This document shows, in pieces, positions 15,198 through 31,679 of a stretch of DNA of 64,000 bases (positions are counted from its first letter, which is position 1; each line of letters begins with the position of its first letter). A model generated the notes under the pieces. That model had not been told where the DNA came from. It saw only the letters and a program-made list of their open reading frames with translations, and did not search any database. The position numbers and the translations under genes are program-made. The stretch comes from Cohaesibacter gelatinilyticus (GTDB lineage Bacteria > Pseudomonadota > Alphaproteobacteria > Rhizobiales > Cohaesibacteraceae). The stretch is taken from the NCBI RefSeq assembly GCF_900215605.1, contig NZ_OBEL01000002.1, forward strand, positions 558,001 through 622,000, read 5' to 3'.

Positions 15198-15332
15198 ATG
15201 ATCTCCAAAGCACTTTCAACTGTCCTTGTCACCACCACACTCGCTCTTGCGGGGGACGTGTCCTCATTTGCTGCCAGTAACCCGATTGGCAACAACCACA
15301 AGACCGATATCCGTTTTGACTGGAACCAATAA
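15198..15332 (+). CDS. 44-residue secreted peptide
   Basis: Too short for usual gene finding but well supported: AAAGGA precedes the ATG, the first 26 residues form a signal peptide (ALSTVLVTTTLALAG ... SFAA) and a 17-residue tail ending DIRFDWNQ remains. The stop TAA (15330-15332) is also the target duplication of the miniature element that follows, so the coding part is intact with or without it. A terminator hairpin lies on the far side of the element. The upstream shared box suggests two-component control. Function unknown. Confidence 0.5.
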   Translation: MISKALSTVLVTTTLALAGDVSSFAASNPIGNNHKTDIRFDWNQ

Positions 15333-15596
15333 TAACAACGAGGGGGAACAATAACCCATATGACCGGACTTTTCGGGTTTTGTGACTAGGAGCGGATGCC
15401 GTCTTGATCTGGTTGACCGCAAGGGAGCAGCGACGTAGTCCACCAAACTTGAAAATCCGGCCTTTGGTGCTTTTCGATTGCTCGCTGAACGTCGTTATCT
15501 TTCTTCCGAAAATGCCCCGGTATTGTCCGTCGAAAGCTGCCTTGTCAGCAAACAAGAGAAAAGCATCCTATGGGTTATTGTTCCCCCTCGCTGGTA
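15333..15596 (+). mobile_element. 264-bp miniature inverted-repeat element, copy A
   Basis: Flanked by TAA direct repeats (15330-15332 and 15597-15599). Its ends are inverted: TAACAACGAGGGGGAACAAT on the left and the complement of ATTGTTCCCCCTCGCTGGTA on the right, with a further CCCATA/TATGGG inside. Copy B at 31355-31618 has the same length, opposite orientation and high identity throughout. It encodes no transposase, so it is non-autonomous. A TAA (TNA-type) duplication recalls some IS5-family groups, but no parent IS is in the window. Confidence 0.8.
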
Positions 15597-15597
15597 T

Positions 15598-28921: not shown

Positions 28922-29923
28922 ATGACTGATAAAAAGTCAACAGGGCGACAACTAGGTTTCGAGGCGGAAGAGTTTGCAGCATCCCTATTTGAAGCGCTCG
29001 GCTATGTTGTCACGAGAGAGGTCCTCATCGGTGGCATCATGGTTGATATGATTATCGAGCGTGATGGCTTATGGCACCCAGTGGAAGTCAAGTTTTTCTT
29101 AAAACGGGTTAGTAATTCTACCATTTTGGAGAATGCGGTACGTTTGCGTCAACTGGTTTCCGTGGATCCACGTTTATCAAATCCCATACTTGTTATCATT
29201 GGCTCCCTCACGGCGTATGCTAGAGGTTGGTCATCTTCAAACTTTGACATTCGCGTGTGGGATTACCAAGAGCTGAGAAATAAAACTGTTGAGCTGAAAG
29301 AGCTTCGCCAGCGATTAGATATGCTCATTGACCCTGAAAATATGAATACTCAGGATATCAATACTGCATCTCGCGAGAAGCGTGAAGTAGTAGCTAGTTC
29401 CCTAATAGAACGTCTCAGATCACACGAAGCTAAGGATGGCTTGACACCAACCGATTACGAAAAACTATGCAGGGAAGTGTTTTCGTTTCTTTTCGACCCA
29501 TTTCTCTTTGGCTTTAGCGATCAACATCGCACTACAGATGGTGCAAACAGATTTGATTTCGTTTGCAGAATCAAGTCAGGAGATCAGTTCTGGGATGCGT
29601 TGCAGAGAGATTTCCGCACACGAGTCATTTTGTTTGAATGTAAGAACTATAAAGATAAAATCACTGCGGATCAGATCTACTCAACCGAACGGTACCTTTT
29701 TACCTCTGCGCTCAGAACCGTAGCTTTTCTAATCTCTCGCAAGGGACACGATGAGGGTTGTTTTCGCGCAGCTCAAGGAGCGATGAGAGAGAGTGGAAAG
29801 CTTATTATTCTGCTTTCTAACAAGGAGTTGATTGAGATGCTTAAGTTTGAGGGTACGGAGGATGGTGCAACTAGTTTCCTAGACCAACATATCTGGAGAT
29901 TTGTGACAGGCCTTCCGAGGTAG
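28922..29923 (+). CDS. Protein with two PD-(D/E)xK nuclease domains
   Basis: 333 residues. Domain 1 (about 8-125) reads as an Mrr-like restriction fold: a helix FEAEEFAASLFEALGYVV, then the catalytic set D42, E55-x-K57 (VDMII ... PVEVKFF). Domain 2 (about 175-330) repeats it: YEKLCREVFSFLF, then D212 (RFDFV) and E239-x-K241 (FECKNY), with a following KITADQIYSTERYLF helix as in Mrr-like enzymes. A charged linker of about 50 residues joins them. Both active sites look complete. Low GC and the next gene, a Shedu-like nuclease, suggest a defence role. It could also be a nuclease of a mobile element. Confidence 0.65.
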   Translation: MTDKKSTGRQLGFEAEEFAASLFEALGYVVTREVLIGGIMVDMIIERDGLWHPVEVKFFLKRVSNSTILENAVRLRQLVSVDPRLSNPILVIIGSLTAYARGWSSSNFDIRVWDYQELRNKTVELKELRQRLDMLIDPENMNTQDINTASREKREVVASSLIERLRSHEAKDGLTPTDYEKLCREVFSFLFDPFLFGFSDQHRTTDGANRFDFVCRIKSGDQFWDALQRDFRTRVILFECKNYKDKITADQIYSTERYLFTSALRTVAFLISRKGHDEGCFRAAQGAMRESGKLIILLSNKELIEMLKFEGTEDGATSFLDQHIWRFVTGLPR

Positions 29924-30092
29924 CCAGCCCATCTGATTTTGACGGATTTTATACCTATTAGCGAAAGCTGCCATTTAGGCAGCGCGCAGTGTCCCCCGTG
30001 CCTGTCGTGCAAGCGCCTTAGTACGCTGCCAGAAAGAGGCCATTCACTAAGACAAACAGAAACCGCCAATTGGAAGTGGGAAGGCGAAGCTT

Positions 30093-30785
30093 ATGAAGTT
30101 TACGAACGCAGAAAATTGGCGTGAAGATCTGTTTAATCGATGGCCGCAGGACTGGCCAGACAAGTCGAAGCACGTGATACCCCACGACGTGACGGTGGCG
30201 CAATATGAGGAATTGGTTGCCCTACTAGATGCGAAAGCCGGGGAGCGAGAGATTGAGATGTTCCTCACACGTAACCGCGAGGCACTCTCAATGGTAATCT
30301 GGCTGTTCTCAACAGGACATCACATGAGCTGGATCTTCCCTAAGGCACCGTTCAGGCCCTCGGTTGGGGAGGTTGGCGGACTTATACCCGACTATCTAGT
30401 TGCTGGCGCCAACAGTATGGGGGTCCAATACTTTGTGCTAGAACTGAAGGGGCCTGATAAAAGGGCCTTCGTGAAACAAGGGAAGCGCGTGTATTTGTCA
30501 GCTGAAGCGAACAAGGGCGTCTGTCAGCTCATGAATTACCTCGACTATGCTGCCCGCGATCAGGCGTACCTTCGCGACAGTCTGCAACTTCACCAGTTTC
30601 GAGAACCGACGGGCGTGCTGTTGATCGGGACTGACGAGGAAACCGAAGACCCTCAGGTACGTCAATTCAAGGCGGCATGGAACAGGATGAATCCACAGAT
30701 CATGATCAGATCGTATAGTGCGTTGCAACGCACAATGCTGAGTAAGCTTCAAGACCATAGAAAATTGCCGACTGTAGAGAAATAG
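30093..30785 (+). CDS. Shedu-like (DUF4263) nuclease
   Basis: 230 residues. The C-terminal two thirds match the DUF4263 pattern of Shedu SduA: EREIEMFLTRNREAL helix, then GGLIPDYLVAG with D100, YFVLELKGP with E117-x-K119, and NKGVCQLMNYLDYA. This is a PD-(D/E)xK nuclease fold; SduA proteins defend against phage. Here the N-terminal part is short (about 45 residues), whereas many Shedu proteins have long N-terminal sensor regions. GGAAGG nine bases before the ATG fixes the start. It follows the double-nuclease gene by 169 bases; the two may act together. Confidence 0.65.
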   Translation: MKFTNAENWREDLFNRWPQDWPDKSKHVIPHDVTVAQYEELVALLDAKAGEREIEMFLTRNREALSMVIWLFSTGHHMSWIFPKAPFRPSVGEVGGLIPDYLVAGANSMGVQYFVLELKGPDKRAFVKQGKRVYLSAEANKGVCQLMNYLDYAARDQAYLRDSLQLHQFREPTGVLLIGTDEETEDPQVRQFKAAWNRMNPQIMIRSYSALQRTMLSKLQDHRKLPTVEK

Positions 30786-31043: not shown

Positions 31044-31679
31044 TCATGCGGCAGCCATGCGCTCTTCGGGTTGGTGCAGGCCGACTACGGCGATGACGGT
31101 CAGGCCGAGCAGCATATTGTACCAGAACTCGATGCCAGCGAAGCCGAGCAGCAGCGGCGCGGCGATGAAGGTGATGCCGACGAGGCCATCGACAGTGAGA
31201 TGCACGCTATAGGGCAGCACTCGGAATACACCGAGATGGTGGTCCGTCAGCAGCGTCAATATAAGGGCCGCGATGCCGGTCACGACGGACAGCCAGAATG
31301 CCAGACCATTGCCGCTACCCAGGCCAAACAGAAACGGCATGGCCATGAGGTTAATACCAACGAGGGGGAACAATAAGCCATAGGATGTTTTTCGATTGTT
31401 TGCTGACAAGGCAGCTTTCGACGGACAATGCCGGGGCATTTTCGGAAGAAAGATAACGCTGCTCAGCGAGCAATCGAAAAGCACCGAAGGCCGGATTGTC
31501 AAGCCTCACAGACTGCGTCGCAGCTACCTTTTGGTCAACCAGACCAGAGCGGCATCTGCTCCTTGCCACAAAGCCCGAAAAGTCCGGTCATATGGGTCAT
31601 TCTTTCCCCTCGTTGGTATAAGTGCAACCGGATAGTCGAGATAGGCGTGAATGGATTTGGTGATGAAACGTGGGAACAT
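31044..31679 (-). pseudogene. SPW-repeat membrane protein split by miniature element
   Basis: The N-terminal piece (start 31679, AAGGAAG before it) encodes MFPRFITKSIHAYLDYPVAL; the rest continues after the element as NLMAMPFLFGLGSGNGLAFW and on to an end at 31044. Removing the 264-bp element and one TAA joins the two in frame into a 122-residue protein with four membrane segments and the SPW-type stretches WLSVVTGIAALILTLL and LTVDGLVGITF. The element brings an in-frame TAG, so the full protein is no longer made; a TTG inside the element could start a 152-residue version with a foreign N-terminus. Neighbour of an AraC gene that may have controlled it. Confidence 0.8.
31355..31618 (-). mobile_element. 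264-bp miniature inverted-repeat element, copy B
   Basis: Flanked by TAA (31352-31354 and 31619-31621). It is copy A (15333-15596) in reverse orientation, of exactly the same length and with matching sequence along its whole span. Ends read TACCAACGAGG and CCTCGTTGGTA. It lies inside the SPW-like gene, where the restored reading frame proves both the element limits and the 3-bp duplication. Confidence 0.85.

Follow-up and report, generated by a model that had tools for sequence, protein, structure and literature searches.

Mrr proteins, which are type IV restriction endonucleases, have an N-terminal DNA-binding (Mrr_N) domain before their catalytic domain. The Shedu (SduA) proteins that have been studied possess regulatory N-terminal domains, long ones in type I, as described in the accessible portions of two reports (PMC12137116, PMC12904381). 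According to the accessible text of the former, a Shedu gene of V. cholerae and the adjacent GrwAB pair are independent systems (PMC12137116), and the accessible part of another report describes PD-T4-8 from E. coli as a further defense system with a DUF4263 domain (PMC9519451).

In the window, a stretch of 64,000 nucleotides of Cohaesibacter gelatinilyticus DNA, a tandem PD-(D/E)xK protein and a short Shedu-like protein are encoded next to each other. The features of the two genes are as follows.

28922..29923, plus strand: ORF1, 333 aa, start codon ATG; tandem PD-(D/E)xK protein, by sequence of the PHROG 31260 type
ORF1 N-domain, about residues 4-121, with D42, E55, and K57
28958..29278, plus strand: Mrr_cat domain of ORF1, residues 13-119, with a predicted AF1548/Card1-like fold
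29369..29920, plus strand: C-domain of ORF1, about residues 150-333, with E180, D212, E239, and K241
30093..30785, plus strand: ORF2, 230 aa, start codon ATG; short Shedu (SduA) nuclease, assigned by Pfam, PADLOC, and alignment A2

ORF2 lies 169 bases downstream of ORF1 on the same strand. The preliminary description proposed that the pair forms a two-gene module with three nuclease centers; the tandem PD-(D/E)xK protein with its Shedu-like neighbor has held up, the pair as a module has not, and the three-center candidate is removed from the list of defense pairs. The two genes are probably independent, stand-alone nuclease genes of the restriction or defense type that each act alone and share a site which varies between strains; the Shedu gene and GrwAB of V. 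cholerae set a precedent for such an arrangement.

The two D...E-x-K sites that had been noticed in the 333-residue protein are conserved in both alignments of its relatives. D42, D212, and K241 are invariant and K57 and E239 nearly invariant in alignment A1 (11 proteins, ORF1 included). Alignment A3 has 35 rows, again with ORF1, two of which (L007 and L010) are fragments without a usable N-half. In the 33 rows with the N-domain, D42 is present throughout, position 55 is E in 29, D in three, and Q in one, and position 57 is K in 31 and R in two; at the C-site, D212 and K241 occur in 35/35 rows and E239 in 34/35, with D in the remaining one. Counted over the near-full-length members (n = 33, ORF1 included), the N-site pattern is kept in 31 and the C-site pattern in all, and the tandem layout is thus a trait of the family. 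Judged by their sequences, the two sites of ORF1 and the site of ORF2 are conserved family features, and chance motifs are ruled out. Of the full-length relatives found, L089 is the nearest (46% identity, 154 of 333 aligned columns); in a pairwise alignment with ORF1, its C-site is preserved but its N-site shows no lysine, so the C-site appears to be the stricter of the two.

ORF1 matches Mrr_cat in Pfam (34.3 bits; cut-off 21), as do 26 of the 35 family members counting ORF1 itself, and in this it resembles the Mrr endonucleases. In contrast to them, it has a second nuclease fold after Mrr_cat and no match to the Mrr_N DNA-binding domain in Pfam at E up to 10, its catalytic domain starting at residue 13. 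Both halves of the predicted structure (pLDDT 85) match restriction-endonuclease-type folds, which bears out the PD-(D/E)xK core expected of this protein; the N-domain is modeled as Mrr/AF1548-like and the C-domain as closest to Nt.BspD6I/FokI. Since Foldseek returned just two PDB matches at E up to 0.001 for the model, the statement on the fold leans on VIA-align. By sequence, ORF1 alone had no match in the PDB, and its profile had a weak one to AF1548 (E 0.0099). Although the predicted C-domain shares the cleavage-domain fold of FokI and Nt.BspD6I, sequence identity to ORF1 is 13-14%, and, among the matches listed, the N-half resembles Mrr/AF1548-type nuclease folds where the FokI type has its sequence-recognition domain. 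At the position of the catalytic E239 of ORF1, FokI has an Asp.

In PADLOC, ORF1 matches two candidate models, PDC-M36A with its C-half (1.9e-8) and PDC-S02 with its N-half (4.5e-5). The C-domain is common to PDC-M36A and PHROG 31260, and the former model is matched by 34 of the 35 family members. However, the match of ORF1 covers only model positions 295-431 of 457, and the N-terminal part of PDC-M36A therefore differs from ORF1; the name 'PDC-M36' was absent from the literature covered by a limited search. ORF1 also matches phrog_31260 (8.1e-59, in two stretches, the best at 160-328) and shares with this family the tandem PD-(D/E)xK sites in one chain.

The assignment of the downstream protein as Shedu-like, with D100, E117, and K119 as its site, is upheld by several lines of evidence. 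ORF2 matches SduA_C (DUF4263/SduA_C) in Pfam (44.2 bits; cut-off 27) and SduA PDLC00397 in PADLOC (1.5e-81) over residues 10-218, nearly its full length, and the three residues are invariant in alignment A2 (four proteins, ORF2 included), in which ORF2 is 33-35% identical to its three strongest relatives. In contrast to the type I proteins, as far as the accessible text on these describes them, its 230 residues include no long N-terminal regulatory domain. The single-sequence structure model of ORF2 is poor (pLDDT 46), and a PDB search gave nothing meaningful. Two weak relatives, L043 8195-8770 (plus strand) and L090 8595-9686 (plus strand), have E-L-E where ORF2 has E-L-K in our own reading of the translations, which may mean that the catalytic lysine is missing from some of the broader group of short Shedu relatives. 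With gene names read from translations, one relative (L040) is flanked by comM-like and aminotransferase genes, another (L041) has a putative regulator and recO/pdxJ-like genes downstream of it, and a third (L039) is flanked by transposase-type genes; from their sequences, the neighbors of the ORF2 relatives are unrelated genes.

Both genes are rare, and they are distributed separately. ORF1 and ORF2 each occur in one of 18 genomes of the genus, namely their own, and neither is found in the 17 others at E up to 0.001. The ORF1 and ORF2 profiles match three and two of 140 genomes of the order, ORF1 and ORF2 are found in four and two of 385 genomes of the class, and the ORF1 profile and the SduA model match eight and three of 398 genomes of the phylum, where none of the seven ORF1-profile matches in other genomes starts before profile position 115. 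In each of these paired samples, the only genome common to both lists is that of the window. In another order, for which the ORF2 profile alone was used, three of 78 genomes match. In one of these three (G493), the ORF2-profile match is weak (4.9e-7), and a broken gene piece of the ORF1 type lies about 960 kb from it on the same contig.

The absence of both genes from the other genomes of the genus could also mean that a single mobile element brought in both ORF1 and ORF2 as cargo, the two acting independently of each other. This would fit with the flanked 6.8-kb region, which, a dispersed repeat aside, matches just two of the 17 other genomes (G003, about 0.9 kb at 72%, and G017, 36 bases). 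However, no integrase was recognized among the frames of 24-36 kb as read from translations, ARAGORN found no tRNA in the window, and the pair was found in no other genome. The composition of the two genes differs as well. ORF1 has a GC content of 0.445, compared with 0.519 for ORF2 and 0.516 for the whole window, and a GC3 of 0.435 (about 0.44), rank 3 among the 61 longest non-overlapping frames, in agreement with the earlier remark that the first gene is AT-rich; ORF2, with a GC3 of 0.60 (rank 41/61), resembles its surroundings. The difference in GC3 is evidence against a common recent history, and we regard joint acquisition as unlikely.

The relatives of ORF1 were collected from plasmids, genome contigs (2 loci), genome samples, and viral contigs (28 IMG/VR loci). 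The viral loci were obtained with the ORF1 alignment; the same contigs gave none with the ORF2 alignment or with a single ORF1 or ORF2 sequence, and neither protein was found in phage records. Plasmid records with an ORF1 match numbered 28, of which nine were opened. Besides viral contigs, the family occurs on rhizobial plasmids, on one plasmid from an actinobacterium, and in a genome bin from Clostridia, and one of the viral relatives (L049) matches PHROG 31260 over residues 7-338; by sequence, ORF1 is a member of an uncharacterized prophage- and plasmid-borne family of the PHROG 31260 type. Downstream sequence of 1 kb or more is available for 44 of the 48 family proteins (43 clusters at 90% identity), and 36 have that much on each side. 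Nine of the 49 ORF1-family loci (L044, L045, L076-L082) owe their match wholly or largely to the C-domain, and this domain also occurs in longer proteins whose N-part does not match the ORF1 profile (e.g., L045, L077, L082, and L091). In L045 (360-2438, minus strand), it ends a protein of about 690 aa with an N-part that we read as a P-loop NTPase, and in L069 (1700-5677, plus strand) the whole tandem module ends a 1325-aa protein. The gene copies in L074 (5710-6795) and L076 are broken into split frames, which indicates decay in some hosts.

At least nine of the 28 viral contigs carry the family gene directly before P2-like baseplate genes, the next gene being gpV-like in seven and gpW-like in two more, identities that were checked with PHROGs on the representatives L048 and L068; the loci of this kind are L048, L049, L050, L051, L053, L054, L058, L060, and L068. 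In phage P2, the corresponding slot between S and V is occupied by orf30, which is annotated as nonessential, and this slot may be a cargo site for the ORF1 family, possibly worth a survey. Neither 'orf30' nor 'DUF4263' occurs in the accessible part of PMC9122126.

The neighbors of the family were also scanned with PADLOC, using 132 of 133 listed flanking frames (one short frame was dropped), which were chosen by length and some of which may not be genes; near-duplicates (L052, L065, L070, L072, L074), the window, and L044, L045, L076-L082, and L089-L091 were left out. Of the 165 models with a match, the first 25 include mads models with two proteins each, as well as Argonaute, Lamassu, IetA, QueC, and OLD/Gabija with one protein per model. 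In L089 (6442-9726, minus strand), the nearest full-length ORF1 relative and an AIPR-family gene (Pfam PF10592) are separated by about 470 bases on the same strand. Other members have transport, catabolic, or uncharacterized neighbors (e.g., L005 and L010), so the defense setting is noticeable but not general. A fixed partner was sought and rejected, as clustering of the neighbors within two genes yielded no general partner but mostly tail genes of phages and some small, local groups. In three loci only, homologous nuclease-like genes of the HSDR_N type directly follow the family gene.

L011, 5744-6880: HSDR_N-type gene
L059, 2424-3452: HSDR_N-type gene, match below the Pfam cut-off
L062, 6510-7538: HSDR_N-type gene

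It is possible that these three loci represent a small sub-lineage of the family with a partner. From its context, the overall pattern suggests a mobile, self-sufficient defense-type gene.

The viral contigs with their 28 relatives, together with Foldseek matches of ORF1 to archaeal Holliday-junction resolvases and EndoMS/NucS, could instead point to ORF1 as the leftover of a prophage, a DNA-processing or recombination nuclease resembling Holliday-junction resolvases, and not a defense gene. We consider this very unlikely, as the P2-like contigs place the family in the slot of a gene that is nonessential in P2 and some plasmid and chromosomal relatives adjoin defense genes. Furthermore, in contrast to the prophage setting of PHROG 31260, our reading of the frames of 24-36 kb recognized no phage structural genes and no prophage around ORF1.

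The proposed module was tested from both sides. In the 49 ORF1-family loci (468,956 bases), the ORF2 profile gives no match to any frame at E up to 1, whereas it recovers the ORF2 relatives in control loci; the absence of SduA among the neighbors rests on this search and not on the PADLOC listing. Loci L089 and L091 are likewise without an ORF2-like frame. Conversely, none of the five ORF2-relative loci (L039, L040, L041, and the weak L043 and L090) holds an ORF1-family frame, in a set that is small, includes two weak members, and has one locus starting 68 bases upstream of the gene. The conserved adjacency expected of a module is thus absent from the loci covered, an outcome that the preliminary description itself had named as refuting the module. 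That ORF1 serves the short ORF2 as a sensor or DNA loader in a genuine but rare module, seen once, is extremely doubtful given these counts, the existence of short ORF2 relatives without ORF1, and the strong GC3 difference, even though ORF2 is without the long fused regulatory domain of studied Shedu proteins and the scan of the 169-base gap on the shared strand found neither terminator-like sites nor promoter-like ones on the plus strand, so that co-transcription is possible.

With two independent nucleases as the preferred reading, we infer nuclease activity and anti-phage function for both, and a division of labor between the domains of ORF1. ORF1, a single chain with two predicted restriction-endonuclease folds, would most likely act alone in cutting invading DNA; its C-site would be the indispensable catalytic center, and its N-domain may be either a second cutter or a DNA reader. 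By analogy with studied Shedu proteins, ORF2 would be expected to attack phage DNA near its ends, also by itself. For the family as a whole, the chances appear evenly balanced that it constitutes an unnamed, stand-alone anti-phage restriction system with Mrr-like and FokI-like domains in one polypeptide, exchanged as cargo among plasmids, chromosomes, and prophages (there in the P2 orf30 slot), the N-domain having changed in some members from a cutter to a non-catalytic reader. Attention therefore shifts to the ORF1 family (PHROG 31260) as the more interesting part, a tandem nuclease whose function is not assigned; given its fold, conserved residues, and location, a role as a single-gene defense system can be tested directly.

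As to the surroundings of the two genes, the ten flanking genes of the window have no PADLOC matches at E up to 0.001, so a larger defense island is not seen there, and Rfam has no matches in the window at gathering scores. Downstream of ORF2, at 31353-31620, lies a MITE-like dispersed repeat of about 270 bp with 32-bp terminal inverted repeats (84%). Among the candidates scored, it recurs in ten further places of the same genome, including a second copy in the window at about 15332-15597; the copies elsewhere in the genome are whole or partial, with 79-90% identity, and many copies are found in two other genomes of the genus (G006 and G007).
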